From Amphibalanus amphitrite (lineage: Eukaryota; Arthropoda; Thecostraca; Balanomorpha; Balanidae), in assembly GCF_019059575.1 (NCBI RefSeq), contig NW_024881597.1, forward strand, positions 62,001 to 126,000: a stretch of DNA of 64,000 bases, in the 5' to 3' direction. The notes under the pieces are model-generated. The model was given only the letters and a program-made list of their open reading frames with translations, ran no database searches and had not been told where the DNA came from. This document shows positions 4,356 to 64,000 of this stretch, in pieces. The translations under genes were made by a program, and so were the position numbers. The stretch's first letter is position 1, and every line of letters starts with the position of its first letter.

Positions 4356-7300
4356 CTGCAAAACATATATCGCGTGTCATTTGAGCTTTTGTTGTTGAAA
4401 AGAGTGTCCAGTTGATACAAAGTGGTTCTATTACGATTTTTTGTGCCTTTCTCCCCAAGTGACATTTGCAGTGGTCATATTAGAACGTTAAGACCTTGGG
4501 CGAGGCCAAGTTGACTACGGTGTTCTGTTCACATTCTGAAGACAAGTCGAAATATACTTTATCATAATATTTGTTTCGTCTTGAGTTCTTTCACTCTCAT
4601 TAAAGAACATTATGAGCATAAGGTCCTCATTCTTTAACACCATAATATTGATAATAATGCTCAAACTAGTTAGCAATAGCTCATATTCAACGGCGCAAGG
4701 TAGTTGGCAATCACCCAGTCTGTTACAAGGAAATTAAGTAAAAAGAGGAAAACATGTCTTCTAATATCAATCCATAAATGCCCTCAGCCCTTTGATTTGG
4801 GATTTTTGCTGTAAAAACAAAAAAGTCTTCCCTAATGAACTGAAAAAGGATATAAGTGTTCTAAAACGTGAAAATTGCAGAAAGTGTTGTAAGATAAGTC
4901 ACGCCCTCCACCAAGGCGGAATCTCACTGTACTTTTCAGACAAATGATATTGGCAATTTACCTGAAAACCTTGAGGCCCTCGAAGAGAATGGACATGATG
5001 CCCACTCCTAGGCAGGCAGCGGTGAGGGTGCCAGCGTCATGCACGTGGAATCCCTCGAACCACAGTGAGAAGTGGTTACCGCCAAAAAAGGTCATCTGAA
5101 AGGGAGAACACAATTGTTTTCAAATCATGACTAAGGCAAGGTTGCGATCAATAACAACAAAAAAAAACACTTGACAATGGCAATGATAATATGCCTATTT
5201 GTTATTACGCTTAGAAATGGATTAATTCCGCGTGTTCATTCGATAACTCGTGAAATTGTAAAGACTCTTGCGAAATAAACACCTGTCAAAAAGCACACGT
5301 AATACGGTAATGCATGTGAAGCACTAGACTACGAATAGGTATGTAATAATGTTGTCTGATTTAGCGCACTGTTTCTATTACGTGCTTACCTGCATCATCA
5401 TGCCCACTTGTTTGGAACCCACGGAGTCGGTCGCGAGTGGCCCAGGAGTGTCTTCGGTGTCACTCGGGGGAGCATGGTTCACAGCCTTGCTGATCACCAT
5501 TGATGACGCTGATGGTAAGTGGTAACATTGGGTGGGCGTCAGAGCACCGGTCATAATGCTTGCAATATGTGATAAAATGAAAATATAACTTGTCAAAACT
5601 AAAAGAAAAGTGATGTGTTTGTAGGCGCGCTGACAGCATTTTGTCTTATTTTGTGTTATCATGAGGGTCATTCAGCATGAACATATATTTTGCAATGCAT
5701 TCCCTGCCGCAACACGATCTATAGACCCTAATGGTTTCCTAGTTACTCAGTCCCATTCGCCATTTTGATCCTTTTGATCCATTTGTAGCTTGTCTTATTC
5801 GTGTGCCAATGCTGCGTGCTCCAGGCTCTTAAAAATGAGTTTTACTTAGCATGAGATAGATGCCTACTTTAGGAGAGAGTTTGTTGATAAAGAAATGTTG
5901 TATCATGCTGGTCGTTATAATAAATTGTAAGATAACCTACTTTGACCGTAACCCGCGCTCCGCAGGGAAGCAAATTTTGCCTCTCCCGTTTTTTGTTTGT
6001 TTGGTTTTTGTTTTGGTAAAAGTTCTTAGTGCGTTACGCCAGTGACTTTCAGTAGGTACCTGTTTTATTTGTACCATCGAACTAACAAAAATAATGCCCT
6101 CTATCCGAAAAATGAACAAAATGACGTTCTAGTGTTGCAATGCAACACCGTTTCCGACCGTCTAATCTTTAATGTATGCGTTCACTTATGTTCACGCTTC
6201 TTACCGGAATGTGTGCTCAATCTCATGCATGAATACTGAATAACTATAGGATATCCAATGTCTTACTTAATCGACAGTCGACACTCGACATCCACAGTCC
6301 ACACTGATATCAAAACCTATCGTGGTGATAGCCCGCAGTGCTGACCTGACCATCTCCGGCACAGGCCATTCTGCGTCCTTTGGCGGCACAAGGGGGGATT
6401 GGTACGAACCCCCCCCCCCCTCGCGTTTGGCCCCTGATCGAGCTAGAGCTTCGCGGAAAAACGAGTGTGTTGCTTGTCACGAGAGCAAGCCGATGTTACT
6501 CAATTTTAAGGTCATCGGTTGACCTTCCAGGTCAGGTCACGACCTAAAAGTGGGGAAAATCGGAACCTGTTACAACGACGTAAAGTGTGGCTGCTATGTT
6601 TTTTTCGGGGTGCTGATCACGAATATCGTGTTAGTTGTGATCACAGATGATGTCTTTATGCATTTAGGACAAGGCGGCTCAGATCCGGTCAGGTCAACCA
6701 GTAGGGGTCGTGACGGGTATTCGTAGTACGAGTCAACCACCTCTGACAGCTTTGTAACTGCTATGAAGGTCCCAAAACCATTTCGTAAATGTTCAAATGG
6801 TTGTTAAATTCGAATTCAGCTCGAGAAACTAGCCTAGAAACATGTAAAACTCGAAAGAGCGAACCGAGGTCATCAAAGGTCAATGACCTGACCTGACCTT
6901 TAGGAGACCTTAACATCCACCCTAATGCATGGGAGCGGCATCAAATCACATGTTTGAACGTTTAAAACCACGAAAAGATTGCAAACGCGCGGCTAACGCG
7001 AGCCGACATACCCTGAATCGCGATTCCGGCCAAATATGGTCTCGGAAAGTAGGTCACAGGTCAAAGATCATTTGGGTCAGGGTCCTGAAATGTTAAGGGT
7101 AGATGTAAAATCGGTCAATGCAGAGGCACTTAAACTTTCGTCGGGATCGGCCACTTCTTACGCGAGTTATTCGCGACTGAGAAACCTTAGGGGGGTTGCA
7201 CCAACCCAGTGACGTACCCAAGGGGGGGGCCACGGGGGCCAAGGCCCCCCCCCCCCCTGAGCGCCGAAGGCGCTCAGGGGGCCCCTCAGGCCCCAGGATA

Positions 7301-10300: not shown

Positions 10301-13300
10301 AACTCCATACGGTCCAAGAAAGCTGGCACACTACCTTTAAGGCGATGAATATTATTTTCGAGCGTTATGATATTATTATGGTATGGTACAATAATTTTGA
10401 TACTTGGCAGTTGAGATAAGGTACATTTTCGTGATTGTTATGGGAAACTTGTGAGGTTTTCTGGGGAAATACTGTGCAGTGCCATATTCTGTTTGTGAAG
10501 TTTTGCACAATGTTTCGGGGTTCTTTTGTGCGCGAATTGCATGTATAGGGTAAGAGGACGCACTGTTCATGAGGGTAAGAGTCGCAGAATTATACATTAT
10601 ATCGAATATGCAGAAATATAAAATTATTAATATATCGCTTAATGACGTTTGTTTTGTAGGTATATCATCAATGGAGCACTGTGAGGCAGATCCGTTATAC
10701 CCGAAATGCTTCTAAATACGAGTTATTCTCCCTTTTTATTGTACTTTTTTTTAGAACCACAAGACATGATTATTTCTTGATTTAACCCGTGCCCTGCTGG
10801 GGGGGTGTTTGAACACCCCCCCCCCTTGTGGTTTTTCGCGAATATCTCAAAAACGGCGGCGCGGAGCTCCGCCGTTTTTAGTACACCTTATCATACATCA
10901 ATTCTACACATGTTGTAAAAATTTCAGACCAAGGTCATTAAAGGTCAGGTCACCAGGTCACTTGAAGTGACCTCACCTCATAAAAAGTTTCAATGTCTGC
11001 CATAGCTACACCGAGTGACCGATTGCTTTGAAACTTTCAGCGATTGATAAGGGTAACAGTATCTATAAAATGTATATCTCGGAATTTTGATATCGGTGAC
11101 TTAAGGTCAGGTCAATTTTGCGACCTCTCCATTACCTATAAGTCAATGGGAGAAAATTGAAATGCGCCTCTTTTGGACGAAAGACATTATAAACACTCCC
11201 AAACACTGAATTACAGGTGGTTTAGACACACTGAACATGAAAATGGTGTCCGTGACCCCAATTTATGCCCCTGAGGTCATCTCAGGTCACGAATGGTGTC
11301 TAACAGTTTTTCGCAAATAACTTTTGATAGAGGCACGCTAGAGCGGTGAGAACGCCTTAGATGTGCTCAGCTGGACGATACGGATCGACTGATATGCAAC
11401 ATGACCCTTTCCGGTCAGGTCATGACCTTAACCTGAGGTCAAATTTTCAAGTTGACCTTTCAAGGTCAAGTTATAGTTCATTCGATGCGTCTTGACGAGA
11501 GGAACACGATGCCGGTAAAAGTAAGCTCGTACAAGGCTTGGGTCAAAAGTTATTGCAGAAAAACTGTTTCCGAAAAAAAATCGGCTATTTTTGCAGTTTT
11601 TGCCCCCTGCAGGCAAAACCGTTGACGTTAGGTCAAATCTGAGAGAATTACTCAGAAAGGGCGTTAATAGGGCTATCGAATGCACTTTTCTGCGGCGCTG
11701 TAGCTTTATTGGTTCCCGAGTTATGCGTTGGCTTCCTGGAAATTGTCGACATTCGACCTGAAAATCGGCGAAATTTTGCCTTCAATGACCTCTGGTGACC
11801 TGACCTTTGACCTGACAAAAAAGTGACCGAAGTGATTTCGTCATTATTTTTGGCGCTCTTTCGAACGACGCCTTCCGCGTATCGCTACGTGGCCCAGGAG
11901 CCGAGTTAGAAGGGGGGTGTTCAAACACCCCCCCCCCCCCCCCAGCAGGGCGTGGAAATCCAGGACCCCCAGCCGGGCGCGGGTTAAAGATTTGCAAGAT
12001 TTATTTTATGTTTTTCTTTTTGGTTACTAGAATTAAATTAAATGTCTTCTGAGTTTGATGTTAACCCTCGCCGGCACAGGCCATTTTGCGTCCTTCGACG
12101 GCACAAGGGTTGGTACGACCCCCCCCCCCTCGCGTTTGGCCCCTGATCGAGCTAGAGCTTCGCGGAAAAAAGAGCGTGTTGCCCGTCACGAGAGGAAGCC
12201 GATGATACCCAATTTTAAGGTCCTAGGTCATCGGGTGACCTTCCAGGTCAGGTCAATGACCCGAAAACCGGGAAAATCGGGACCTGTTAGTAGAAAGTCG
12301 TAAAGTGTGGCTGCTATGTGGTTTTCCGGGGTGCTGATCACGAATATCGTGTTAGTTTTGATCATAGATGATGTCTTTAAGCATTTAGACCAGGTCGGGT
12401 CAGGTCAGGTCAGGTCAACCGGTAGGGGTTGTGACGGGTATTCGTAATACGTGTCAACCGCCTCGGACAGCTTCGTAACATGTTACGAAGGCACCAAAAC
12501 TACTTCGTAAATGTTCAAATGGTTGCTAAATTCGAATTCAGCTCCAAAAACTAGCCTAGAAACATGTAAAACTCGAAAAAGTGAACCGAGGTCACCCGAG
12601 GTCACCAAAGGTCAATGACCTGACCTGACCTTCAGGTGACCTTGACACCCACCCTAATGCATGGGAGCAACATCAAATCACATGTTTGAACGTTTGAAAC
12701 CACGAAAAGCTTGCAAACGCGCAGCTAATGCGAGCCGACATGCGCCGAACCGCGATTTCGGCCAAACATGGTCACAGAAAAGAGGCCACAGGTCAAAGGT
12801 CATTGGGGTCAGGGTCATGAAATTTTCAGGGTAGGTGTAAAATTGATCAATGCGAGGGTACTGAAAGTTTCGTCGCGATCGGCCGCTTTTTACGCGAGTT
12901 ATTCGCGAAAAACCTTAGGGGGGGTTGCATCAACCCCCCCCCCCCCTGTGCCGGCGAGGGTTAAGCATTTGGACAGTACAAGCTGCATAGGTGTGTGTGA
13001 TCATATGCTTGCGTACTCTCCCCGCCTGTCGTGCGTACTCTTACACACCCCATGTGGTAAGAGTACGCAACAGCAGCGGTTCAGAAAACGTCAGTTTTAG
13101 ACTATTTCCATTTACGCTGAAGGATCGTTGTCTCATGGGTTGATGGCTAATTCAATGAACTTAAATATTCCATATTTGCAATTTCTTTCTTTCAAATATT
13201 AAGCAAATGAGAGCAAGAAATCCACTAAGTGCGTATTCTTATACGACTTCACCCTGCATTTATCTCTTCGGATCTGGACTAGTTCATCTTACCTGCCACG

Positions 13301-13733: not shown

Positions 13734-14926
13734 TTAACCCGCGCCCGGCTGGGGGTCCTGGATTTCCACGCCCTGCTGGGGGGGGGTGTTTGAACACCCC
13801 CCCTTCTAACTCGGCTCCTGGGCCACGTAGCGATACGCGGAAGGCGGCGTTCGAAGGAGCGCCAAAAATAATGACGAAATCACTTCGGTCACTTTTTTGG
13901 TCAGGTCAAAGGTCAGGTCACCAGAGGTCATTGAAGGCAAAATTTCGCCGATTTTCAGGTCGAATGTCGACAATTTCCAGGAAGCCAACGCATAACTCGG
14001 GAACCAATAAAGCTACAGCGCCGCGGAAAAGCGCATTCGATAGCCCTATTAACGCCCTTTCTGAGTAATACTCTCAGATTTGACCTAACGTCAACGGTTT
14101 TGCCTGCAGGGGGCAAAAACTGCAAAAATAGCCGATTTTTTTGGGAACAGTTTTTCTGCAATAACTTTTGACCCAAGCCTTGTACGAGCTTATTTTTACC
14201 GGCATCGTGTTCCTCTCGTCAAGACGCATCGAATGAACTATAACTTGACCTTGAAAGGTCAACTTGAAAATTTGACCTCAGGTCAAGGTCATGACCTGAC
14301 CGGAAAGGGTCATGTTGCATATCAGTCGATCCGTATCATCGAGCTGAGCACATCTAAGGCGTTTTCACCGCTCTAGCATTTCTCTATCAAAAGTTATTTG
14401 CGAAAAACTGTTAGACACCATTCGTGACCTGAGATGACCTCAGGGGCATAAATAGGGTTCACGGACACCATTTTCATGTTCAGTGTGTCTGAACCACTTG
14501 TAATTCAGTGTTTGGGAGTGTTTATAATGTCTTTCGTCCAAAAGAGGCGCATTTCAATTTTCTCCCATTGACTTATAATGGGGAGGTCGCAAAATTGACC
14601 TGACCTTAGGTCACCGATATCAAAATTCCGAGATATACATTTCATAGATACTGTTACCCTTATTAATCGCTGAAAGTTTCAAAGCGATCGGTCAGTCGGT
14701 GTAGCTATGGCAGGCATTGAAACTTTTTATGAGGTGAGGTCACTTCAAGTGACCTGGTGACCTGACCTTGAATGACCTTGGTCTGGAATTTTAACAACAT
14801 GTGTAGAATTGATGTATGATAAGGTGTACCAAAAACGGCAGCGCTCCGCGCCGCCGTTTTTGAGATATTCGCAAAAAACCACAAGGGGGGGTGTTCAAAC
14901 ACCCCCCCCAGCAGGGCGCGGGTTAA
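13734..14926 (-). mobile_element. TTAA family 1 element, copy 2, in the gene A promoter
   Basis: Inverted relative to copy 1; TTAA at both edges. The gene B 5' flank keeps the near-empty site: CACTAATTGCTAC then TTGA, and beyond it sequence that matches what follows this element (GGGT-CCGAAGG against GGGTTCCAAAGG). So this copy inserted about 350 bp upstream of the gene A start codon. Confidence 0.92.
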
Positions 14927-15467: not shown

Positions 15468-16529
15468 GTCTAACGGTGGCGGCCATATTGCGCAGACCAG
15501 GAACCGGCTGCCGCCTGTGTTGAGGAATAGGGAATTCGGGACCTCGATTTACGTTTGCGGCCGCGGTATCCGTTACGATCAAGTTACGTAGATACGGAGC
15601 CCGGCATCTTACGCAGAATTGAGTGGGGAACACGATCGTATCTTCAGAATTCCTCAAATTCACTCGCTGGACCTACATTTGCCCCGGCCGAGGGGGTTGA
15701 TTGAACCCACCTCGCTAATGCGCCGCTAATTAAATTAGAATTAAGCGGTAAAGTGGTCGTATGCGGCAAAGTATAATGCAGAGTGACTGGTAGGAACCCG
15801 CTTTAAAGGTCTTAGGTCAACCGGTGACCTCTGAGGGCAGGTCAAGTGATCTAAGGCACGGGTTCGGTTTTTGGTAAATAACTTCGCCAAAAAAGGCCGT
15901 AGAGCCGCGATTTTGGCATCATCGTGTTCAGCTAGCTCAGGCGCATCGAGTGATATACTTTTTGTTCGGGTCAGGTCAACTTAGGGTGTTGATCTCAGGT
16001 CAAGGTCAGGTCAGCACCCCCAGGTCACGAAGTTGGTCGAAAGAGGTCATGTCGCATATCGTTCGATTCGGCATGTCTTCCTGAGTCCATTGGTGGCTTT
16101 TCCGACTCGCTAGCTCAATTTGATCGGGAGTTATTGAAGAAAAATTGTGACCCTTGTGACGTCACAAATGACGTCTTGCAAGGGCAACAATGCAAATATG
16201 AAGCATAGAACCTTGCAAGGAGTGCATGAAATCATAATTCTATATGCTTGAGATAGTTTCAGATCATTCTCGGCGCCAAAATAGCAATTTTCATATTTCC
16301 CCATTGACTTATAAGGGTTTAACGTATTAGTTCCTTGTATCTGAGGATTTTTTAGGATTTCATCTTGTTCTCCACTCAATTATGCGTAAGATGCCGGGTT
16401 CCGTGTCCACATAGCTTGAACGTAACGGATGCAGCGACCGCAAACGTAAATCGAGGTCCCGAATTCCCTATTCCCCAACACAGGCGGCGGCCGCTTCCTG
16501 GTCTGCGCAACATGGCGGCACCGTTGGAC
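15468..16529. mobile_element. Foldback with 162 bp inverted arms
   Basis: Arms at 15468-15629 and 16369-16529 are reverse complements with few mismatches, from GGTGGCGGCCATATTGCGC at the outer edge to ACGCAGAATTGAGTG inside. The interior is a decayed TTAA family 4 copy. No coding sequence seen. Confidence 0.85.
15675..16362 (+). mobile_element. TTAA family 4 element, decayed copy
   Basis: Contains CCCCGGCCGAGGGGG, the GGTGACCTCTGAGG block, and the TTGATCGGGAGTTATTGA to GCAATATGAAGCAT-like series seen in the copies at 27533-28562 and 55443-56265. Ends are eroded. It lies between the two arms at 15468 and 16529. Confidence 0.65.
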
Positions 16530-16781: not shown

Positions 16782-16925
16782 TTAACCCTCGCCCCGTTGG
16801 GGGGGCCAATTTGCCCCCCCCCCGTGGTTTTTCCTGAATAGCAAGAAAACGGCGGCGCGCAGCAACGCCAAATTTCCAGTACCTTCCCGGGCATCAATTT
16901 GACACATTTACGAGAAAGAAATTAA
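16782..16925 (+). mobile_element. TTAA element end fragment (CCCTCGCCCCG type)
   Basis: TTAACCCTCGCCCCGTTGGG with the hairpin GGGGGCCAATTTGCCCCC, followed by GCCAAATTTCCAGTACC. It is the complement of the right end of the element finishing at 46264. Truncated at about 16925. Confidence 0.75.
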
Positions 16926-16989
16926 TAAACTGTCGCGTTTTCCCATAGACAAAGCATTGAGTCATTAGTTCGTGCCCTTACACGTACTT

Positions 16990-17627
16990 ACCTACGGTAG
17001 AAAAGGTCATGTTGCATATCAGTCGATCCGCAACGTCGAGCCGAACACATCTAAGGCGTTTTCAGCGCTCTAGCACGCCTCTATCAGAAGTTATTAGCGA
17101 AAAACTGTTAGATTCTGTTCGTGACCTGAGATGACCTCGGGGACATAACGAGGGGTCACAGTTGCCATTTTCCGGTTCAGTGTGTCAATTTTACCTACAT
17201 CTCGATGTTTGAGAGTGTCTAGAATAGCGTTCGTGCAAAACAGACGCTTTTCAATTTTCTCCCATTGACTTATAATGGAGAGGCCGCAAAATTGACCTGA
17301 CCTTAGGTCACCGATATCAAAATTTCGAGAAATGCATTTTATAGATACTGTTACCCTCATCAATCGCTGAAAGTTTCAAAGTGATCGGTCACTCGGTGTA
17401 GCTATGGCAGACATTGAAACTTTTTATGAGGTGAGGTCACTTCAAGTGACCTGGTGACCTGACCTTGAATGACCTTGGTCTGAAATTTTCACAACAAGTG
17501 TAGAATTGATGTATGATAAGGTGTACCAAAAACGGCGGCGCTCGGCGCCGCCGTTTTTGAGATATCTGCGAAAAACCGCAGGGGGGGGGGGTTGTTCAAA
17601 CACCCCCCACACTTGGGCGCGGGTTAA
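16990..17627 (-). mobile_element. TTAA family 1b element, truncated
   Basis: Matches the right-to-left reading of the first half of 34001-35180, including the AGGTCACTTCAAGTGACCT pair, the GGCGGCGC...GCGCCGCC hairpin and the TTCAAACACCCC terminal hairpin, ending at TTAA 17624-17627. The distal half is missing. Confidence 0.85.
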
Positions 17628-17934
17628 TGCATGGGAGCAACATCAAATCACATGTTTGAACGTTTGAAACCACAAAAAGCTTGCAAACGCGCGGCTAATG
17701 CGAGCCGGCATACGCCGAATCGCGATTTCGGCCAAACATGGTCTCGGAAAAGAGGTCACACGTCAAAGATCATTTGGGTCAGGGTCATGAAATTTTTAGG
17801 GTAGGTGTAAAATTGATCAATGCGAGGGTACTTAAAGTTTCGTCGCGATCGGCCGCTTTTTACGCGAGTTATTAGCGAAAAGCCTTAGGGGGGGGGTTGC
17901 ATCAACCCCCTCCCCCTGTGCCGGCGAGGGTTAA
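17628..17934 (+). mobile_element. TTAA family 2 element, right-end fragment
   Basis: From TGCATGGGAGCAACATC to GTGCCGGCGAGGGTTAA it matches the right third of 12061-12964. It abuts the family 1b end on the left and the family 3 element on the right, each at a TTAA. Confidence 0.88.
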
Positions 17935-21687: not shown

Positions 21688-21728
21688 AGTGGCGACAAGA
21701 GGCTGAGTAAGCGGACTGCATTCAAGAC

Positions 21729-25251: not shown

Positions 25252-25271
25252 GCGCTTCGGGGGGAAGGGAA

Positions 25272-27485: not shown

Positions 27486-27530
27486 TTCCCCTTTCTGTTC
27501 TCTAGCTTATTTTAGAGAGCAGAAAGGGGT
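27486..27530. repeat. Short perfect hairpin
   Basis: CCCCTTTCTG.TCTCTA and TAGAGAGCAGAAAGGGG pair over about 17 bp with a short loop, directly left of a TTAA-type element. Possibly the footprint of a small foldback. Confidence 0.7.
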
Positions 27531-27532
27531 TA

Positions 27533-29873: not shown

Positions 29874-30040
29874 CATGTTACGAAGGCACCAAAACTACTT
29901 CGCAAATGTTCAAATGGTTGCTAAATTCGAATTCAGCTCCAAAAAAACTAGCCTAGAAACATGTAAAACTCGAAAGAGTGAACCGAGGTCACCCGAGGTC
30001 ACCAAAGGTCAATGACCTGACCTGACCTTCAGGTGACCTT

Positions 30041-38400: not shown

Positions 38401-41400
38401 GCCCTGAGGTCATCTTAGGTCACGAATGATATCTAACAGTTTTTCGCAAATAACTTTTGATAGAGGCATGCTAGAGCGATGAAAACGCCTTATATGTGTT
38501 CAGCTCGATGATACGGATCGACTGATATGCAACATGACCCTTTCCGGTCAGGTCATGACCTTGACCTGAGGTCAAATTTTCAAGTTGACCTTTCAAGGTC
38601 AAGTTATAGTTTATTCGATGCGTCTTGGCGAGAGGAACACGATGCCGGTAAAAGTAAGCTCGTACAAGGCTTGGGTCAAAAGTTATTGCAGAAAAACTGT
38701 TTCCGAAAAAATCGGCTATTTTTGCAGTTTTTGCCCCCTGCAGGCAAAACCGTTGACGTTAGGTCAAATCTGAGAGAATTACTCAGAAAGGGCGTTGATA
38801 GGGCTATCGAATGCACTTTTCCGTGGCGCTGTAGCTCTATTGATTCCCGAGTTATGCGTTGGCTTCTTGGAAATTTTCGACATTCGACCTGGAAATCGGC
38901 GAAATTTTGCCTTCAATGACCTCTGGTGACCTGACCTTTGACCTGACCAAAAAATTGACCGAAGTGATTTCGTCATTATTTTTTACGCTCTTTCGAACGC
39001 CGCCTTCCGCGTATCGCTACGTGACCCAGGAGCCGAGTTACAAGGGGGGTGTTCAAACACCCCCCCCCAGCAGGGCGTGGAAATCCAGGACCCCCAGCCG
39101 GGCGCGGGTTAAAGGAAATATACCAATTCCCCAAGTTTTCTCCTTTTTTGCTCTAGTTTCACGAGTTTTATGCTTAAAATGATTAGGAAAAAATAATGAA
39201 TATTTACATGCAAATATAATTTCTATTTTTTATACAGGAAAAACTATTTTCCCTCTTTGGTAGAAGCTAGATAGTGTCTGCAGCGGAAGCAAATTACGCA
39301 TTAACCCGGCACCGCCTGGGCTATTTCCGTACCCACGACAGCCTGGGGGGGTCGGATCCGACCCCCCCCCCCCTGTTATCTCGAGAACCAATGGTTGTAT
39401 CGAGCCCCGCGAGGTGGCGTTCGAAAGGTCTCTACGAGACCTTCCTAACGCACTCTTAAGATTTTAAGATTGAGGTCAACTTTTGGGTCAAGGTCAGGTC
39501 AAAGGTCAAATTCTGGGGTTTTGCATGATTAGGCTTACGGACAGCGGAATCGATAGCTGCTGCTCGAAACTCACCAAAAATGACCTCAAAGACCTAGTGA
39601 AGGTACCATGTGCGTAAAGGGGTCATACTTGGTACAGGTCAAGGTCAGGTCAGGTCACGAAAGGTCACGGTTTTCACTTTCTGCTACATGGGCGTGCGAC
39701 ACATGTTTTATGGCTTATTTTTCGCAACGAATCCGATGGTAATGGTTATATGTAATCCCCAGGTCACTGTGCTGGTGATAAGTGTGCATTCAGCATTGAA
39801 AGCATAAAAAATTGTTTGTACCATACATAACTAAACGAGGGCTAAGAAAAAAAGTCAATTTTTCAACTTTTTATTTTTGACATAAAAATGCACTTTTCTA
39901 GACGAGCGTTGGCCCAGAAATCTAGTGGTGCCATTTGTTTTTACATGTGATGTTCAAAAGTGCCTCTAATTCACGAAAATGCTTATGACGTCACCATGCC
40001 CTATGCATGTTGGAGCTATTTTTTACAATTTGGGGGTCAAAATCAAGATAGAAAGTTGAAATTTGGGACATCTAATGTTCTAATAGAGCTCTATAACATA
40101 TATTCCGGTTTTTTATAATTCTCAAAATTTTGGATTTTATTAGCTGTTTTCTAAAAAATATCGTTTTTGAATTTTTAGGGGTGAAAAACGCATTTTATGG
40201 AAAATCCGAGATAACTATTTTAAAGAACTCGTTGAGTTGCTTCGATTTATGTCCTTAATTTGCAATTTGCTTTAAACCTTGATTTTTGGCGATTTTTTAA
40301 ACATTTACCACTTTTTGACTGAAAACGCCATGTAGTTGATCACTAAAATCGATATATCTAAAAAAAATTGGAACATTTTTCTTAAAAATTACACAGGAGA
40401 CGTCAAATTGATGGGGGAGAAGGTATGCCAAGTTTCAAGTTGATAGCGTAAGCGGTTCATGAGTTATTCGAGAAAAACGGAGGGGGTCGGATCCGACCCC
40501 CTCCCCCCAGGCGGTTGCGGGTTAACCCGCGCCCGGCTGGGGGTCCTGGATTTCCACGCCCTGCTGGGGGGGGGGTGTTTGAACACCCCCCCCCCCCCTT
40601 CTAACTCGGCTCCTGGGCCACGTAGCGATACGCGAAAGGCGGCGTTCGAAAGAGCGTCAAAAATAATGAGGAAATCACTTCGGTCAATTTTTTGGTCAGG
40701 TCAAAGGTCAGGTCACCAGAGGTCATTGAAGGCAAAATTTCGCCGATTTCCAGGTCGAATGTCAAAAATTTCCAAGAAGCCAACGCATAACTCGGGAACC
40801 AATAGAGCTACAGCGCCGCGGAAAAGCGCATTCGATAGCCCTATTACGGCCGTTCTGAGTAATTTCCTCAGATCTGACCTAACGTCAACGGTTTTGCCTG
40901 CAGGGGGCAAAAACTGCAAAAATAGCCGATTTTTTCGGAAACAGTTTTTCTGCAATAACTTTTGACCCAAGCATTGTACGAGCTTACTTTTACCGGCATC
41001 GTGTTCCTCTCGTCAAGACGCATCGAATGAACTATAACTTGACCTTGAAAGGTCAACTTGAAAGTTTGACCTCAGGTCAAGGTCATGACCTGACCGGAAA
41101 GGGTCATGTTGCATATCAGTCGATCCGTATCGTCGAGCTGAACACATCTAAGGTGTTTTCATCGCTCTAGCATGCCTCTATCAAAAGTTATTTGCGAAAA
41201 ACTGTTAGATACCATTCGTGACCTAAGATGACCTCAGGGCATAAACAGGGGTCACGGACACCATTTTCATGTTCAGTGTGTCTAAACCACTTGTAATTCA
41301 GTGTTTGGGAGTGTTTATAATGTCTTTCGTCCAAAAGAGACGCATTTCAATTTTCTCCCATTGACTTATAATGGGGAGGTCGCAAAATTGACCTGACCTT

Positions 41401-44283
41401 AGGTCATCGATATCAAAATTCTGAGATATACATTTTGTACATGCTATTGCTCTTAGCAATCGCTGAAAGTTTCAAAGCGATCGGTCACTCGGTGTAGCTA
41501 TGACAGACATTGAAACTTTTTATGAGGTGAGGTCACTTCAAGTGACCTGGTGACCTGACCTTGAATGACCTTGGTCTGAAATTTTCACAACATGTGTAGA
41601 ATTGATGCATGATAAGGTGTACCAAAAACGGCGGCGCGGAGCGCCGCCGTTTTTGAGATATTCGCGAAAAACCGCAAGGGGGGGTGTTCAAACACCCCCC
41701 CCCCCCCAGCAGGGCGCGGGTTAACCAATCATATCACCTAGCTCGGACCAACTGCATGCTGATTGGCTGACGATTGGCGTCTGCCATAGGTGGCTGCATT
41801 CTTGGAATTCTTCCGTAAAGAAAATATTTCTGCGCAAGGGAATGATTTCGGGACGAGAAATGGAGTGGCTTTGCCTAGGGTGATTGTTGGGCCGTAAAAG
41901 CTCCCGATTTGTGCTAATCTCAGCCCAAGCTACAAAACTGCTATTTCAGTTCAAAACCCCTTTTTGAATGACAAATGTCGTATATTTCCTTTAAACATAT
42001 ATCGGCCTCAGCTTAAATATTATTTGATTGTAAAAATAAACGGAGATTTTGAATCCGTTCTTATAAATAACTTATGAGACCTTATGTCATCAGCAAAAAG
42101 ACGGATGGTCAAAATATTTCAATGATATCTAATTAAAATATGATTATCAACTTTCCACAATTGTTCAACTGGCGTAGTCTTTCTTTCCTCTAAACGTGGA
42201 GACCGCGTACTTGTATATTTATACCCAGTGTTCAATTTATAACAATTTTTCAACTTATCAAGCTTAAGATGACGCAATCACACCATCCTTGTCTTGAATG
42301 TGTCTCCTTCACATGTGTATGTCAGGGGGTTACGGTTCTATGCTGCCACATAGGGAGGGCTCAGGAGACAGATGACGTCACGGGGTATCAAGGTTTTGTC
42401 GATTTTCAAAATTTTGCTGTGCAGTAAATTATATTTTTTAGACTCTAAGGGAGCCTAAAGGTTAATATCAAACTGCCTTAGAGTATAAAATCCTCGGAAG
42501 GTTAACCCTAGAACGCCTAGGGGGGGGTTGTATCAACCCCCCCCCCCCTCTGAGGTTTTTTCGAAGTGCACGCTAAACGGCTTGTCGTAGCGGGCTGAAA
42601 TTTTCAATACCCTCTGGGGCAACCTTTGCGCATCTTTTGCCGAAAAAAAATTGATCGGGTCATGTCAGGTCACGGAGTTATGACGTCATAAGAGGTACAG
42701 CCTCCGGCCGACAGTTACCAAACGTGTGCGCCGAATCCCTAGGTTTTCTGCCGGTGATACCCACATTGTTTGATGGATCATGATGAAACTTCCCATGCAT
42801 GTTGGGGCAAGCATTGGCTATCGTGTGGTGCAAGAAAATTGACCGGGTCAGGTCAGGTCACGGAGCTATGACGTCACAAGAGGAACAGCGTCCGGTACTA
42901 TTTTTGAAAAGCGCCCGAACCACTATTTTGCTAATTCTTGTCACCTCAATGGGAATATGCAGCAATATTAGCTTCTATAGGGAGCAAATGGACCTCCCAA
43001 ATCCAAAAATACAATCAGATTTAAAAAAATTAAATTTTGATTTTTCGAATTTCTGCCGCCGACTGTGACCTTGCCGACTTCCGGCGCTCCCAACGCGCCA
43101 TTTTTAGAGCTAGGGAAACCAAATACATACCAAACGATAGAGAATTGATCAAGGAACACGATAGTGAAGATTTCAAGTCGATATCTCCCACCGTTTTGCC
43201 GCAATCGCCGCGGAAAGTTGAAAAAGGTCTATTTTTCCGAAAATTTGACCTTTGACCGGTCAAAAGTAGGTCAAATGTTGACCTAGGACCAAAAAATATA
43301 CCACCAATCGCGAGATCTCGTTGAGAGCAATCCGTTGGTTTTTTCCGCTAAGCTCTATGACCTTCCGTTTCGAAACGCCAGGGGGGGGTCGTAACAACCC
43401 CCCCTGGTCGTTCGTGTTATGAGAAATGGCCTGGTCGTGCGAGGGTTAATATTGGCGAAGATTGGTAGACACCCGCTGACGTCATCTGTCAATGTCACCG
43501 ATGTAAACAAACGGCTAACCATTTTACCTCCTATATACGGCCTTGGTGTATGTTATGTAGGTGCAGTGTTCACCAAAGTGATGCACTCAATGCTCATGCA
43601 TCTATATGTATATTCTATATCTATAGAAGTTATATCAATCTTATAAATTTACAGGCGACACTCACAATGGTATCAGTATCCTATTGTGGCGATAACCCAC
43701 TGAACATCCCACTTGAATAATTAGTAGGTATCTAATGCCTCTTGCCCAGTCCATTCATGGATGGAGTCATAGTTAAGCTCTTATGCCTGTAGGCCAAATA
43801 AATAACGAGATCGTGGTGGAAAATCCCCAATGGCTCAAATATAGATAACATGAATCTGAATGGCTCAGGTCAAGAATGGCTCAACTACAAAATTTAGATC
43901 CTAGCCTCGAGCTATGTAATCAGATCCACCCAGGTCACCGATCCAATGCTTGGATTAATGCACAATGCACATCGCACAGTTCACAATGCACAAGTCTGAT
44001 GCCATAGTACTAAATCTCGTCCCTGGCGTTTTCACTACGAATTTGCAAATTCTAACAGGTGCAACTGCGAGGGTTTAGTTGCAATAAAACAAGACACGCT
44101 AAGGCAAGTACGTTAATGTGACATAATGAGCCTTAATTACACTCCTAGAGCAACACTCCTACTATCTATTATGCCGCAGTTGCCCTTACCTGCTGCGGGG
44201 GCCGGGGCCGCTCGACAGCCGACCCCGCACAGCACTACCGCCAGAAGCAGCGGCACCGGCAGCGCTCGTCGTGACGGCCTCAT
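32249..44283 (-). CDS. Ctr1: Copper transporter (Ctr/SLC31 family), gene B, complete
   Basis: Six exons (44190-44283, 35390-35508, 33804-33937, 33247-33300, 32976-33003, 32249-32407) join in phase to 588 bp, 195 aa plus stop, the usual Ctr size. Order: signal peptide (about 1-25), Pro/Ser/Thr extracellular linker, Met cluster MMMQM that captures copper, TM1 ending YEGLKVFR, a 20-residue loop, TM2 with the MxxxM selectivity motif (FLMLATMTY), TM3 with the GxxxG packing motif (GAGVGYAIF), and an HC pair near the C-terminus (DHCQ). All functional motifs of Cu(I) importers are present. Introns 1 and 2 contain TTAA elements; exons are clean. Confidence 0.95.
32976..33003 (-). CDS. Ctr1: Copper transporter gene B, exon 5 (microexon)
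   Basis: 28 bp between TTTTCAG and GTAAGT, encoding IQVFLHIVQ at the start of TM2. Found because both flanking phases require it and Ctr proteins have LLHIIQ at this place. Confidence 0.88.
33247..33300 (-). CDS. Ctr1: Copper transporter gene B, exon 4
   Basis: 54 bp between TTTTGCAG and GTGAGT, encoding LILVDKIASSRLSSPGHW. The other open frame across it is a shadow; phase with exons 3 and 5 decides. Confidence 0.9.
33804..33937 (-). CDS. Ctr1: Copper transporter gene B, exon 3 (TM1)
   Basis: 134 bp after TTTCAG; encodes MTFFGGNTFKLWFKSFGIHD, AGTLTAACLGVGVMAALYEG and LKVF. The donor GTCGCT is weak compared with GTAAAT in gene A, but the phase fits. Confidence 0.93.
34001..35180 (+). mobile_element. 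TTAA family 1b element in intron 2 of gene B
   Basis: TTAA at both edges, ends CCCGCGCCGGGCCGG and CCGGCCCGGCGCGGG, terminal hairpins GGGTGTTTGAACACCCC and GGTGTTCAGACACC, and many AGGTCA motifs. Intron 2 is 1452 bp here and 294 bp in gene A; removing this element leaves 276 bp, so gene A serves as an empty site. Confidence 0.93.
35390..35508 (-). CDS. Ctr1: Copper transporter gene B, exon 2 (Met cluster)
   Basis: 119 bp, acceptor CCGACAG, donor GTGCGT. Encodes VPMLVSTAVDPPPPSASG and ends GGMMMQ. Length and phase equal gene A exon 2. Confidence 0.9.
35645..36673 (+). mobile_element. TTAA family 6 element
   Basis: TTAA at both edges, ends CCCTCGCCAAGCGAGG and CGGGCGAGGG, hairpins GGTTGGTACGACC and GGGGTTGCATCAACCCC, AGGTCA/TGACCT interior. 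In intron 1 of copper transporter gene B. Confidence 0.88.
36815..37926 (+). mobile_element. TTAA family 7 element
   Basis: The left end is eroded (CTGAGTCCCGCTGGGGTAGAC). The right end CCCAACGGGGCGCGGGTTAA shares its TTAA with the next element. The interior has scattered TGACCT motifs and poly-T stretches. A related copy is nested at about 61613-62815. Confidence 0.75.
37923..39112 (+). mobile_element. TTAA family 1 element, copy 3
   Basis: Full-length, same orientation as 10782-11987, with the subterminal hairpin GGCGGCGCGGAGCGCCGCC intact. It abuts the family 7 element on the left at one shared TTAA. Confidence 0.93.
39301..40525 (+). mobile_element. TTAA family 8 element (CCCGGCACCGCCTGGG ends)
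   Basis: Both edges TTAA. Each end has the perfect palindrome GGGGTCGGATCCGACCCC. AGGTCA motifs are confined to the left part (39470-39680); the rest is A+T-rich. Confidence 0.9.
40522..41724 (-). mobile_element. TTAA family 1 element, copy 4
   Basis: Inverted relative to copy 3 (37923-39112), sharing a TTAA with the family 8 element. Copies 3 and 4 form an inverted pair of about 1.2 kb arms within intron 1 of gene B. Confidence 0.93.
41725..42501. other. Unique intron sequence of copper transporter gene B
   Basis: A+T-rich, with no repeat or gene recognised. Confidence 0.5.
42502..43449 (+). mobile_element. TTAA family 9 element
   Basis: TTAA at both edges, left end CCCTAGAACGCCTAGGGG, right end GGTCGTGCGAGGG, hairpins GGGTTGTATCAACCCC and GGGGTCGTAACAACCCC. 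Interior has GGTCAGGTCA near 42845 and TGACGTCA-like sites. Confidence 0.87.
43711..43837 (+). repeat. Inverted repeat arm (left), partner at 48117-48246
   Basis: About 127 bp from ACTTGAATAATTAGTAGG to TCCCCAATGGCTC is reverse-complementary to 48117-48246, with few mismatches. The two arms enclose 4.3 kb containing exon 1 of copper transporter gene B. Confidence 0.88.
44190..44283 (-). CDS. Ctr1: Copper transporter gene B, exon 1 (signal peptide)
   Basis: ATG at 44283, encoding MRPSRRALPVPLLLAVVLCG and VGCRAAPAPAA, then one base before GTAAGG. Same phase and similar sequence as 13293-13380. Confidence 0.88.
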
Positions 44284-51222: not shown

Positions 51223-52405
51223 TTAACCCGCGCCCCAGTGGCGGTCTCAGCCAACTTCGCCCTAGTGGGGGGGGGGGGCATATGCTACCACCCACCTCTA
51301 ACTCAAAAACTAAGAGGGCAAGAAAGACGCGGTAAAAAGCAGTCGATATCTCTCAATGCGTACGTTTGAAAGTATTTCAGTCATTTTTCATCTTAGAGCA
51401 ATATTGGGGTCACCAGAGGTCATCAAAGGTCAAAATTTGCCAATTTTCATTATATTTTTCAGAAAACATGCCGTTATCTCAGGAACTATGGTAGCTAGAA
51501 AAACGCATGGAACAGCAATCGATAGATTTTGAACTCTTCTTTTGATAAGGTCATTCTCGAAATTGACCTCAGGTCAACGTTTTAGCCTCCAGAGGGCAAA
51601 TACTCCAAAAATAGCTGTTTTTACGAAAAGTGTTTTTCGACAATAACTTTCGACTACAAAAAGCCACATTTCTATTGCCAGAATCGTGTTCCTCTCGCCG
51701 CGACGCGTCGCATGAACTATAATTTGACCTTGAAAGGTCAATTTGAAAATTTGACCTCAGGTCAAGGTCATGACCTGACCAGAAAAGGTCATGTTGCATA
51801 TCAGTCGATGCGTCTCAACAAGACAAACACAATGAGACCATCCCCAGCGTTCTATATCTTTCCAATCGCGAGTTATTGGCAAAAATCTGTTTGTAGCCTC
51901 AAATGACCTCGGATGACCTTTCTAGAGGCTATCAGCAAAAATGACACCTAGGTCATCACGGGTGGTCCAAATCATTGTTATTCTGAAATATTTGGACTGT
52001 TCCTATGCGTACACACGGATCTAAAGGCATTTTCATTTTTCTCCATTGACTTGTAATGAAAAGATCACGCCACTGACCTGACCTTAGGTCACCAATATAA
52101 AAAATCCGAGATATACAAATTGTAGGCGCCCATAACAGCATGCAATCCACCAAGTTTAAAACCTTTCTGACAAACACTGCAGGCTGGGCATGATTGCAAA
52201 CTTTTTTAGGCTTGGTCAGTTAACTTGACCTGGTGACCTGACCTGACATGACCTGGGGTCGAAAATTTCACACATTGTCCAAAATTGATGTACCAAAATC
52301 TACCCCAAGCGGCGCGGCGCTACGCGCCGCGGTTTTTATTCACACGCAAAAAACGCGACAGGGTGGTAACATATGCCCCCCCCCCCCCACTGCGGCGAAG
52401 GTTAA
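51223..52405 (+). mobile_element. TTAA family 11 element, copy 1
   Basis: TTAA at both edges, left end CCCGCGCCCCAGTGGCGG, right end CACTGCGGCGAAGG, hairpins with GGGGCATATGCTACCACCC-type arms. AGGTCA motifs, and a GGCGCGGCGCTACGCGCCGC hairpin near the right end. Confidence 0.9.
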
Positions 52406-54006: not shown

Positions 54007-55206
54007 ATAACCCGGCAGGCGGTGGGCCTCCCAGCCACCTTCCGCGCGGTGGGGGGGGGGCATTTTTTTGCCCCCCCCCCCCCTCGTATCTCCGAAACTA
54101 CTGGACGGATCCGGAAAATTCAAACGGCGCTCGATAGCCCTGTCAAATTTGTCGAAGGAAACCAAATTTCATTGACCTCAGGGTCACCGATGATGTCACA
54201 GGTCAGGTCAAAGATAAAATGTTTCACCGTTCACGGGGCTTCTAGGGAAAGCGCTATAACACCGAGTAAAACGCATTTTATCGAAAATCAGCGATAAGGC
54301 GTCAGTTTTCTAGTACATATGTTGCAATTAGAGGTCACTGGTCATACCAGGTCAGGTCACAGGTCAGGTCACCAAAGGTCACCAAGGGTCACCACATGAA
54401 CCCAACTTTACTAAGGTTGTGCGATGCATGTTTTATGGCCAGTTTTTCATTTCCAACTCAATGGTATTGGTTATAAGACCATCAGGTACGGTTTAGGTCA
54501 CTTTCTGGTGGAGGTCAGGTCAACGTTAGGTCAAAAAAGGTCAAATTTCAAAGTTGATATTTTTGCATGAAATGGGTATCGATTCGATGCAGCTCGTCAC
54601 GGGGAGTCTAATGGTGGTCTTTTTTTGCGCTACGAGGTCGAGAATTGCTAAAAATTGAGTTTGAAAATTTGACGTCATCAATTTTGAACAGTTTTTTTCG
54701 CTATAACTTGGCCAAAAAAAGAGGTATTGATCTCAAATTTGGTATGTAGATAGAAGGCGGTAGGGACTATCACATATATTCCGTTTTTTCGAAATTCAAA
54801 AAACCTTTTGGATTTTTTGGCTATTATATTCAAAAAATATATTTTTTGATTTTTGGGGGTCAAAATCCAAAAAATTCGAAAAGCCGAAATAGCAGTTTTG
54901 TAGCCCTTTTGATTCCACACCTTTTATGTCGGAACATTTTTCTGTATCTCTAAAGCTGTAGGCCTGACAGCTCTTCCCGCGAAACCTTTTTTTGGGTCGA
55001 AAATGGCAAAAATGACGTCACTCTGACGTCATTAGCGGCCAACCTATCATAGCCTTTGGAAAAAAAATTTTGGTCACCATGTGCGCTAGCTACTCCCGGG
55101 AGAGTACTGAAGTTTGGTGACGATCGGCGCAGTGGTTCTCGAGATATATCGAAAAAAAAAAGGGGGGCAAAAAATGCCCCCCCCCCCCCACCGCCTGGAA
55201 GGATAA
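54007..55206 (+). mobile_element. TTAA-type element, CCCGGCAGGCGGTGGG ends
   Basis: Related to family 8 at the ends (CCACCGCCTGG right) and to family 10 in the interior (TTTCACCGTT..., GATTCGATGCAGCTCGTCAC). The flanks have decayed to ATAA and ATAA. Hairpin GGGGCATTTTTTTGCCCC at the left, matching GGGGGCAAAAAATGCCCCC at the right. Confidence 0.8.
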
Positions 55207-55442: not shown

Positions 55443-56265
55443 TTAACCCTCGCCGGACCTAATGTCCGTCAAGACAGCCCATATTCAGCCCAGATTCAGC
55501 CCGGATTCAGCCCAGATTCGGGACACCTCCGATCAAGCTAAAACTCGCACACAATGTAGGCCATGACATGCCCAATCCACAGTCCAAGTCATTCGGTGCC
55601 GGACCTATTGCTTTCTACAAGCGCGCTGGCCGAGGGGGGGGGGCGGGTACGACCCCCCTCGCCGTTTCGCCCCTGGTGGAGCTAGCGCGTCGCAGAAAAA
55701 AACGAGCGTGTGAGCCGTTACGAGACGCAGAGATTGGTACCCGATTTTAAGGTCCTAGGTCAAACGGTGACCTCTGAGGTCAGGTCAAGTGCCCCAAGGT
55801 ACGGTTCAGTTTTTGGTGAATAACTTCGCAAAAAACGGCCGCAGAGCCGCGATTTTGGCAGCATCGTGTTTGCCTCGCTCAGGCGCGTCGAATGATATAC
55901 TTTTTGTTTGGATCAGGTCAACTTAGGATGTTGACCTCAGGTCACGGTCAGGTCAGGACCTCCTTTCCCGACTTAATTTGATCGGGAGTTATTGACGAAA
56001 AATTAACATGACCTTGATGACGTCATAAATGACGTCACGCAATGTGAACATGGCAAAAGTGACGCATCTAACCTTGCAAGGAGTGCATCAAATCACGATT
56101 CTGTGTGCTTGAGATAGTTGGAGATCGTTCCCGGCGCCAGAATAGCGGTTTTCATTTTTCCCCATTGACTTATGTATAATGGTGAGGTCACGAAAATGAA
56201 CTGACCTCATATGACCTTTAGGAAAAATCCGAGATATGCAAGTTGTGAGACTCGTAATGGATACT
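55443..56265 (+). mobile_element. TTAA family 4 element, 3' truncated
   Basis: Left end TTAACCCTCGCCGGACC matches the complement of 28562. Four copies of an 11 bp unit CAGCCCAGATT occur at 55475-55519, not seen in the other copy. It breaks off at GTAATGGATAC beside the poly(A) signal of lectin 2. Confidence 0.85.
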
Positions 56266-57561: not shown

Positions 57562-57984
57562 TTAAAGGGACCCTCCCACCTTAGCATTAGATTTGAGTTG
57601 AGATAGCCAAAATGGGGTCCCTGGCTCACAATTACCGGTTTCGGCATTCACAACATCGAGAAATGCCTTAAATCGGAAATATTGAATTTCAAAATTGCAG
57701 CATTTTGATTCAGAGGGGCTAATGCATATGAATACCCCTCTGAATGTGTGACGTCATGGCAGATATCTAACGATTTTTAAATGTTTGACTAAAACGTTTT
57801 GTAGCACGCGGTGGTATATGCTGCTTTGCGCGCAACAAATGCCGCACTTTCAAATAAAGTCGCTAGGAACAGCGGAGATCCCAAAAAGTAAACAAAAGTA
57901 AAAGTCTAATATCTTGAAAACCGGTGAATATTTTTCGATGAAATTTTGTAGATATTCGTTTTTGCTCTTTCTGAACCGAGCAAT
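57562..57984 (+). repeat. Dispersed repeat Q, copy 2
   Basis: Starts TTAAAGGGACCCTCCCACC and is continuous with the part equivalent to 16565-16781. The hairpin GAGGGGCTAATGCATATGAA then TACCCCTC is conserved. It is cut by the element at 57985. Confidence 0.7.
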
Positions 57985-58742
57985 GATTTGGACCACCCGT
58001 GACGACCAAGGTGTCTTTTTTGCTGATAGCCTCTAGAAAGGTCATCCGAGGTCATTTGAGGCTACAAACAGCTTTTTGCCAATAACTCTCGATTGGAAAG
58101 AGATAGAACGCTGGGGTTGGCCTCATTGTGTTAGTCTTGCCGAGCCGCATCGACTGATATGCAACATGACCTTTTCTGGTCAGGTCATGACCTTGACCTG
58201 AGGGCAAATTTTGAAGTTGACCTTTCAAGGTCAAATTATAGTTCATTCGACGCGTCTCGGCGAGAGGAACACGATTCTGGCAATAGAAATGTCGTGGCTT
58301 TTTTTAGTCAAAAGTTATTGTCGAAAAACTGTTCGTAAAGACAGCTATTTTTGGAGTTTTTGCCCTCAGGAGGCTAAACCGTTGACCTGAGGTCATTTTT
58401 GATGAAGAATTTATCAAAAGAAGAGTTCAAAAGCTATCGATTGCTTTTCCCAGCATTCTTCTAGCTATCATAGTTCCTGAGATAATGGCATGTTTTCTGA
58501 AAAATATAATGACAATTCGCAAATTTTGACCTTTGATGACCTCTGGTAACCCCAATATTGCTCTAAGATGAAAAATGACCGAAATACTTTCAAAAGTACG
58601 CATCGAGAGCTATCGACCGCTTTTTACCGCGTCTTTCTAAGCCTTCTTAGTTTTTGAGTTAGACGTGGGTGGTAACATATGCACCCCCCCCCCCCCCCAC
58701 TAGGGCGAAGTTGGCTGAGACCGCCACTGGGGCGCGGGTTAA
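57985..58742 (-). mobile_element. TTAA family 11 element, copy 2, truncated
   Basis: Reverse of 51223-51965: it starts in the GGTGTCNNTTTTGCTGATAGCC region and ends CCACTGGGGCGCGGGTTAA. In lectin 2 intron 1. Confidence 0.88.
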
Positions 58743-60707: not shown

Positions 60708-62985
60708 TTAACCCACGCCGGGCCGGGGTGTTTGAACCTACCCTTCCAATGCGATGTTCCGCGAATATCCCATTAATGGAAGCACATCTTTTCAACACAT
60801 GTACAATTTTCAGACTCAGGTCGCTCAAGGTCAGGTCATCAGGTCACGCCTTGTCTCAGAAAAAGTTCTTATGCAACAGCTAAACTGACCGAACGATCGT
60901 TTTTGAACTATTGATTGATAAGAGCGATTGATAAGAGTGGAAAGATGTAGAAAACGAAGATACCTCTTGAATTTTCCTTTACCTATTGGTGACCTAAGGT
61001 CAGGTAATTTTGCGACCTCTCTAGTATAAGCCAATGGGAGAAAATTAAACTGCGACGCTTTTGAACGAAAGCCATTGTGAACAGTCACAAATATCGGGTA
61101 ATGGGTAAACATGACAAACTGAATCGGAATATTGCACACATTGCCTTTTGTATGCCTTTGAGGTCATAAAAGGTTTCCAACAGTTTTTTTTTTATACAAT
61201 AACTTATGATAGAGACATGCTAGAGCGATGAAAACACCATAGATGTGTTCAGCCCAACGATACGAATCGACTGATACGCAGCATGGCCTTTTCCAGTCAG
61301 GGTGTAATGTTGACCTGAGATAAGATTTTCCAAATGATCTTTCAATGCTATGGTATATTACTGTACCTACCTACATTTGGCACGTCTCGACGAGAATGAT
61401 ACGATGCCGGTAAAATCAATGTGCTGCAAGTTTAAAGCAAATGCTATTGCAGAAAGGAAACATTAAAAAAAACATTACCTTAAAAAAAACTCTGCAGGCT
61501 AAACCGTTGACCTTGGTCATACCTGAGAGTTCACCCCAGAGAGATGTTGAATGAGCTACCAAAAGCGTTTTCCGCGGTGCGGTAGCTCTGTTCGTTCCCG
61601 AGTTAGCCCGCGTCCCACTTGAGAGGGCTGTTTATTCCCCGCCCCCATCCCCTCTCGTTTTCTGCAATAACTTCTAAACCGTTTGGCGTATCGTCGCAAA
61701 ACTTTCAATACCTTCGGCTACATCAATTTAACATCTTGTGTCAAAACCAGAACTTCGTAGCTACCATAGGTCGGCCGGAAATGACGTCAGAGTGACGCTA
61801 TGTTCGGCCGATTTTGATGCAAAACATTGAGCTACGGTAATCGCTCTCAAGAGCTGAGTTTTTTTAGATAGGTCCAATTTCTTTGCATGAGAGGACTTAA
61901 AATACATATGGCTATAAAACTGCTCTCTCGGATATTCAAGATTTTGAAAAATCCTTTATATAAAATCTAAAAATTATACTTTGCCTTTTCTAAAAGTTTT
62001 TGTCTTTTTGAAGATTTAAATTCAGAGTATACAGAACACATACCGATGAACTACTCTAGAAAGTTTTAGCCCGATATCTTCAAAAATAGCTAAGCTATAA
62101 CTACGCATTACCTATAGTTAAAATTTCACTATCATATATTTTTCAAATCAACTTTTCAGTGCGTTTTTTTTTTTTACATCGTATGTACACCAATATAAAT
62201 AGCACCATCGTGTTCCTGAGCTTAAACTACATCCGATAAATACATTTTTTGTTGAAAACTTTCAACTTAAAAGTTTGACCTTTTTGACCTGAAAGTGACC
62301 TAACCTCAGCTATATTCAGCTGAAAATGACCTCGAATGGCACAAACGACTGAGTTCGAAGCCTATGGCCTAAGTGGACCATAAAACATGTGTCACGTAAC
62401 CACTGAATGTTGTTATATTTCCGTGACCTGGGATGACCTGGCCTTGACCTTAAAATCAAAGATCAAGTTTGACAGCCGCAGGGTATCTTAAGTATCTAGT
62501 ACCGAGTGTGTACACCAAAATTGAAACTGAGCTGACTTGTAAGCCGGCGGCCAGAGCCCAAATTGTGAACAAGCCAAATATTAATAATTTTTATTTTGAA
62601 CTGACCTGTGACGTCATCGGTGACACCGAGGTCAATGAAATTAGGTTTCCCTCGACAACTTTTTCCAGCGCCATCAGGCATCGTTTTAATTTTTACAGTC
62701 TGCCAACTGCCAAGTGGTTTCGGAGTTAGTGGCTATAAATAGTCCTCCCTTCCGTGGGGCGCGTTACACACAGAGAGACCCCAGGGGCACCCCAGCGGGC
62801 TAGCGCCGATTTTTCAAAATAAAAAATCGTCTAAAAAATCCTTTAGATGACCTCCGGAGACCTGGTTGTTGGCCTGACCTAAAAATTTGCTGAAGTATTT
62901 TTTCATGACTTTCGGCGCTCTTTCGAATGTCGCTTACCGCGTGTTGCTACATTGACATGGCCCAGAAATTCACTGTTTCTCTGTC
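60708..62985 (+). mobile_element. TTAA family 1b element, decayed, with nested element
   Basis: Left end TTAACCCACGCCGGGCCGGGG. The order of internal blocks follows 34001-35180 up to about 61612, and resumes at about 62816 with CCTCCGGAGACCTGG and the TCTTTCGAATGTCGCTTACC block. More diverged than other copies. Confidence 0.8.
61613..62815 (+). mobile_element. TTAA family 7 element, nested copy
   Basis: Starts TTAGCCCGCGTCCCACTTGAG and follows 36815 onwards (TTCTGCAATAACTTCTAAACC, CATCAATTTAACATCTT). The right end near GGGGCGCGTTACAC/CCAGCGGGC is blurred, so this edge is approximate. Confidence 0.65.
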
Positions 62986-63490: not shown

Positions 63491-64000
63491 TTAACCCGCG
63501 CCCTGATGGGGTCTGCCGAGCAACGCGGTCTGATGGGGGGGGGGCATTTTGGCCCCCCCCTCCCAAGATCTCGAGAAACACGCAACATAGCGACAAGCGG
63601 CAAACGGCTTTAGATAGCCCCAATGAGGAACTACCTTGTGACCGAATTTCATTGACCTAGGTCGAACCGATGACGTCACAGGTCAGGTCAAAGGTCGAAT
63701 TTTCACCGTTTACAGGCATTTCAAGAAATGCGTTGTAAAATCGAAAAAATGCATTTCATTGAAAATCATCGATGGGGAAATGTTCGTCAAACACATATTT
63801 TGCCATTTGAGGTCACTGATACCAGGTCAGGTCACAGAGGTCAGGTCACTGAGGGTCACAAATTAAAAATATCATGTGATGCATGTTTTATGGTCCATTT
63901 TATATGCCAAATGCGATTATGTGGGACAGGCAGCCCTTGGGGTCAGTTTAGATTATGTTTTGGTGAACGTCAGGTCAAGGTCAGGTCAAGGTCAGGTCAA
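63491..64000 (+). mobile_element. TTAA family 10 element, copy 2, cut by window end
   Basis: Intact left end TTAACCCGCGCCCTGATGGGG with hairpin GGGGCATTTTGGCCCC. Follows 45089 onwards closely, and runs into the same AGGTCA array at the last bases. Confidence 0.92.

Follow-up and report, generated by a model that had tools for sequence, protein, structure and literature searches.

Short TTAA-flanked elements of the barnacle Amphibalanus amphitrite as probable non-autonomous members of the piggyBac superfamily

Short elements in the window

The window, i.e. the whole analysed stretch of 64,000 nucleotides, contains TTAA-flanked elements without coding capacity, which were counted as 13 families (A to L and Q). 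The delimited elements and fragments amount to 25,028 bp, corresponding to 39.1% of the window and 43.4% of positions 6346-64000, a figure which takes in the foreign inserts in K and B2 and in which the bounds of H, I, K, L and the fragments are approximate. These values agree well with an earlier note on this DNA, which had put the share at roughly 40% and the number of families at ten or more. The elements are as follows (window coordinates, strand, description):

6346..7207, +, B0, fragment of family B, 85.5% to B1; TTAA on the left degenerate, right end missing
10782..11987, +, A1; left end single, right end double; empty site found
12061..12964, -, B1; left end double, right end single; empty site found
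13734..14926, -, A2, copy of family A
15793..16318, -, fragment of family H, 85% to 27894-28419
16782..17627, +, chimera X; left end of the G type, body and right end of the A/Q type
17628..17934, -, right-end fragment of family B
27530..28562 (approximate bounds), +, H1; left end single, right end double
28594..30719, -, B2; split by D (28995-29873) and by another insert at 30041-30392
28995..29873, +, D; lies inside B2; motif repeated at +27 (15/17); one GGTCA only
34001..35180, +, Q
35645..36674, -, C; left end double as judged by eye, motif repeat non-significant
36813..37926 (approximate), +, I; degenerate single end left
37923..39112, +, A3; one TTAA in common with I
39301..40525, -, E
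40522..41724, -, A4; one TTAA in common with E
42502..43449, +, F; internal-deletion relative of the full-length element L064
45089..46264, -, G1; left end double and degenerate
51223..52405, -, J1; left end double, right end single; 71% to an arm of the full-length element L068
52432..54000 (right bound approximate), -, K; degenerate; insert at 52796-53833
54009..55205, -, L; TTAA degenerate on both sides
55443..56265, -, fragment of family H
57981..58742, +, J2, fragment; double end right
60708..61620, +, diverged Q-like copy; lacks a clear palindrome, right end not located
63491..64000, -, G2; left end double; continues past the window edge

The complete elements listed carry TTAA at both sides, as is typical of the piggyBac superfamily, and their termini are of the CC(C/T) type, from which a few degenerate ends (H, L) deviate. 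A single TTAA serves the neighbours I and A3, and likewise E and A4. For A1 and B1 the target could be observed directly, since the joined flanks align through both sites in the loci L028 and L073, where neither element is present. The empty site is TTAA for B1 and TTAT for A1, and for these two elements a single-copy target and a duplication of TTAA are thus seen. In chimera X, positions 16782-16908 are 79% identical to G1, and positions 17000-17627 are 91% identical to Q.

The abundance of the ends is also reflected by word counts. TTAACCC and GGGTTAA occur 17 times each, compared to about 4 each expected from length alone, and TTAACCCKCGC occurs 27 times compared to 0.10 in dinucleotide shuffles, which bears out the CCC(G/T)CGCC-like termini described in the earlier note. 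The GGTCA-rich interior described there holds for most families: the density of GGTCA/TGACC is 16.7 per kb within the elements and 2.4 per kb outside them in the window, a roughly 7-fold difference, but D (one site in 879 bp) and K (4 sites in 1,569 bp) are poor in it.

In the assembly searched (807.6 Mb), the single-end pattern TTAACCCKCGCCNNNNNGGGGGG gave 13,181 exact matches and the A-type double-end pattern 4,316, while the reversed control of the former and the control of the latter gave none. With 5 matches of TTAACCCKCGCCNNNNNGGGGGG, the window is about 5 times denser than the genome mean of about 1.04 per 64 kb. One genome thus bears a large load of short elements, which is plausibly driven by piggyBac. 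Of 37 listed end pairs from the window and fetched loci, 29 span 1150-1250 bp; a constraint on length near 1.19 kb is not claimed, since many of these pairs belong to family A and interiors are common to several families.

Further features lie between or within the short elements. Two TTAA elements of 1.1 kb (9245-10341 and 17931-19010) are 97% alike and have purine ends (AGGTAGTGTGCC) and, internally, an inverted repeat of 77 bp; an empty site for the first is present in the locus L028, and by their end type we take them to be Kolobok-like. An LTR retrotransposon at 21438-25524 has 253-bp direct repeats that are 97.6% alike, with matches to reverse transcriptase, RNase H and integrase. The insert of about 1 kb in K (52796-53833) has inverted ends ACCGGGTGGCCCAG at TA and looks mariner-like, while the insert in B2 (30041-30392) resembles a tRNA-derived SINE by eye only; ARAGORN finds no tRNA in it and no tRNA gene in the window, and no RNA family reached the gathering threshold in the window. 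An 18-bp minisatellite of GGGCCCCTGGTCGCCTGG (7420-8180) begins just past the truncated right side of the B fragment. Two C-type lectin frames (49955-50410 and 56425-56880) are 83% alike in DNA, and the former shares 91% identity with a protein of A. amphitrite that bears the name BRA-3.

Architecture of the ends

Two kinds of end can be distinguished. A single end consists of TTAA, CCC, a motif of about 16 bp and a palindrome whose arms are a G-run and a C-run; in a double end, a second motif copy follows the first 26-27 bp inwards and precedes the palindrome. At 27 of the 34 window ends, the G-run/C-run palindrome was the best palindrome within 17-75 bp from TTAA (our reading of the script output), in line with the hairpin inside each end that the earlier note had seen; at the remaining 7 the script chose another or a weak palindrome. 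The repeat of the terminal motif at +26/+27 reached p<=0.02 at 14 of the 34 ends and was not significant for the double ends of C, E and I. By our reading, the repeat is clear at one end (9-13 of 13) and weaker at the other in 35 of the 37 listed end pairs, the two exceptions being E (9 vs 8) and one spurious pair.

Comparison of three motif copies per family showed a mean agreement of 10.11/14 within families compared to 7.08/14 between families, and none of 5000 permutations reached such a value. For G and I the agreement was no better than the between-family mean, and in F the motif differs between its two ends. Thirty genome loci, which were the first pattern matches on one contig and therefore a non-random sample, show the identical plan in further families with other pairs of motif and palindrome. 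The occurrence of many family-specific pairs of motif and palindrome in one genome is new here.

The plan as such is not. The earlier note had not recognised the combination of such termini with G/C hairpins and hexamer-filled interiors as described, but a palindrome beside the motif and a motif duplicate at one end only are the published layout of T. ni piggyBac. According to the available text of PMC7351741, the ends of that element are asymmetric: RE bp 34-63 recur nearly unchanged as LE bp 7-35, shifted by 27-28 bp, and both ends contain a palindromic repeat to which a CRD dimer binds. The barnacle ends show the same asymmetry, motif copy and adjacent palindrome, weakly in the case of C, E and I. 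By analogy, the palindromes described here would be binding sites for CRD dimers as well.

Full-length elements and class assignment

A genome search with DDE_Tnp_1_7 yielded 116 scored matches, and the ends were inspected around 41 of them (30 and 11 more). Since 22 of the first 30 loci showed at least one CCCATTA-type end by our count, most of the piggyBacs seen have another kind of end. Nonetheless, a DDD piggyBac-type transposase was found between the same ends as those of the short elements in two complete elements, L064 and L068, to which other families can be connected only via related ends or interiors. The former (55-4031, 3,977 bp) carries F-type ends around a 590-residue open PF13843 frame, and the latter (233-4955, 4,723 bp) carries the ends CCCGCGCC/CCTTCGCC, which form a matching double and single end around an open frame of 666 residues. 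A third locus, L061, is 99% identical to L064 over 3.6 kb and contains the F double end, the other end lying beyond the stretch. These are candidates for the autonomous relative that the earlier note had proposed to search for by joining these ends to a piggyBac frame, and its piggyBac lead is now tied to transposase genes.

Both proteins match PF13843 and, as the best among solved structures, T. ni piggyBac (E 9e-79 and 1.3e-56); the catalytic region and the Cys-rich tail can be aligned with that transposase, and the match to piggyBat is weaker for both. In a tree of 18 distinct frames, a clade with 100/100 support unites L061, L064, L068, L028 and L062; a long-branch warning applies to it. 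Around L028 and L062 no own ends were found, so that "these ends" is established as a label for only three rows of the tree and needs two changes on it. For the transposases at C702 and C778, own ends were not found, the ends nearby belonging to separate short elements.

The short elements are related to the two full-length elements to different degrees. F aligns with L064 over the outer 394 bp at 95% and over 332 bp of the other end at 87%, and is an internal-deletion derivative of it. A aligns to both ends of L068 (66-79% alike), and J to one of its arms over about 700 bp and to two stretches of the other (66-79%). Around the 41 of 116 matches inspected, no full-length element was found specifically for B, C, D, E, G, H, I, K, L or Q. 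The gene of L068 occurs in three copies printed as 100% identical, of which one scores slightly lower. The copies have different left flanks, and the two right flanks seen are different as well, which points to recent movement rather than to a duplicate assembly. In L064, the stretch of the gene that matches P0002 contains one stop, and this copy may be non-functional.

Altogether, we are highly confident that the elements are non-autonomous transposons of the piggyBac superfamily, moved into TTAA by the piggyBac transposase of rarer full-length elements via ends composed of motif and palindrome. The short elements very probably use piggyBac transposases encoded elsewhere in the same genome. 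Such a transposase, supplied by the rarer full-length elements, would recognise a single end by the terminal motif and the adjacent palindrome, and a double end by the succession of motif, about 27 bp, motif and palindrome; it would then excise the element, in this superfamily seamlessly through a TTAA hairpin, and insert it at TTAA. The families would differ because pairs of motif and palindrome change together with the specificity of the transposase. The elements are thus an unusually rich and well-resolved variant of a known superfamily with one unexplained structural feature. Many matched versions of the piggyBac end code are apparently present in one genome, and at least two of these are backed by transposase genes, so that a change in piggyBac specificity could be read from natural sequence.

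The earlier note had suggested one transposase and a repeated re-origination of the families. That all families re-arose independently and use one transposase is very improbable. The two transposases found behind such ends are only about 38% identical and differ in their pairs of motif and palindrome, which are family-specific, so that the notion of one transposase is not supported. For re-origination the picture is mixed. The common end plan and at least two separate deletion origins (F on the one hand, the A/J group on the other), related to two different full-length elements, speak for it, but the interiors of many families align collinearly, with an identity of 0.55-0.89 in the best 36 or so listed pairs and a median of 0.46 over all pairs compared. 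Most families are accordingly diverged relatives from common ancestors. A Kolobok-type transposase as the moving force can practically be dismissed: it would account for the TTAA target sites, and other TTAA elements with purine ends (AGGTAG) do lie in the window at 9245-10341, with an empty site, and at 17931-19010, but Kolobok ends are purines and its transposase differs from that of piggyBac, whereas the elements studied start with CCC and the transposases found between such ends in L064 and L068 are piggyBac.

With the piggyBac assignment, T. ni piggyBac (PDB 6x67/6x68; PMC7351741) is the closest known system as far as its available text goes: the TTAA target, the CCC ends, the palindrome after the motif, the motif copy 27-28 bp inwards at one end only and the aligned catalytic region and Cys-rich tail are alike, while the G-run/C-run arms, the other cores of motif and palindrome, the long arms with GGTCA clusters and the very many non-coding copies distinguish the barnacle elements. 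The element piggyBat of Myotis lucifugus, whose transposase is more distant from the barnacle proteins than that of T. ni, belongs to the same superfamily and also has repeated binding sites of motif and palindrome at one end, but according to the accessible part of PMC11707139 these repeats lie at left-end bp 11, 55 and 99, and the right end has no palindrome. The CMITEs of Acropora corals are TTAA-flanked with CCC ends and comprise families with different ends and a common interior, one of them traced to a piggyBac; they provide a precedent for conserved interiors with differing ends. In contrast to the barnacle elements of 0.9-1.2 kb they measure about 100 bp, and the available text of PMC2872659 describes no GGTCA array, G/C palindrome or single and double ends for them. 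Pokey/mPok of Daphnia, as far as its description was available, is a crustacean piggyBac with short derivatives that targets rDNA, and is likened by description only. No description of the barnacle elements was found in the portion of the literature searched, with Repbase and Dfam outside the search.

Some piggyBacs of another end type lie next to or within short elements. One with CCCATTAGTGCC ends (L014:507) adjoins an E-type end, and another with the same ends (L020:7-3825) sits inside a G-type element; in these cases one piggyBac lineage has inserted into short elements of another.

GGTCA clusters in the arms

Pooled over 11 families, the GGTCA sites recur with a period of 170 bp, and none of 500 nulls was as strong; since the families are related, these are not 11 independent tests. 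In 8 single sequences the signal is weak, with p of 0.003-0.125 in the band of 156-192 bp and of 0.009-0.209 for any period of 100-260 bp, and the periodicity of F peaks at 100 bp. Both full-length elements carry dense clusters in their non-coding arms and only scattered single sites in the coding frame, and the short elements retain mainly the cluster-bearing arms. In 391 of 530 cases a clustered site is retained from one family to another, compared to 3,117 of 13,669 for flanking pentamers, a difference that repeat alignment or slippage could inflate, while isolated sites are kept no better than background (10/51). Without this split, 543 of 790 sites are kept, compared to 27% of all pentamers. 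Base identity in the sites compared to beside them is 0.87 vs 0.60 in one pair, but the difference is small in the two remaining pairs (0.66 vs 0.55; 0.66 vs 0.56). Clusters spaced by about 170 bp and kept between families better than their flanks are new here, and in DNA without coding they pose a testable puzzle. The regular spacing, roughly one nucleosome repeat in full-length and short elements alike, had not been anticipated by the earlier note.

One explanation, to which we give an even chance, is that the clusters are passive remnants without function of a 170-190 bp subterminal unit that was tandemly duplicated in ancestral full-length elements. In the left arm of L064 a self-repeat is seen at a distance of 188 bp, each unit containing one GGTCA cluster, which can account for the spacing of the clusters; F shows the same spacing (42615-42707 vs 42803-42895) and L068 a weaker self-repeat at 173 bp. 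The background-level retention of isolated sites agrees with a passive origin, but the better retention of clustered sites argues against it, to the extent that it is not inflated as described above.

AGGTCA is the known half-site of nuclear receptors. It is conceivable, but rather unlikely, that the clusters are a selected cis-array offering phased docking for a host factor of the nuclear-receptor type or for the transposase, so that the elements stay accessible and mobile. The short elements lack any coding content but have retained the clusters, and such selection would therefore act on mobility and not on transposase expression. Adjacent GGTCA pairs favour pentamer gaps of 0 (78) and 5 (40), with few head-to-head pairs; a nuclear-receptor spacing code is not claimed, because pentamer slippage would give the same preference.

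A GGTCA-type word also occurs at 19485-20680, in the unit of 133-bp tandem repeats that lie in a large palindrome.
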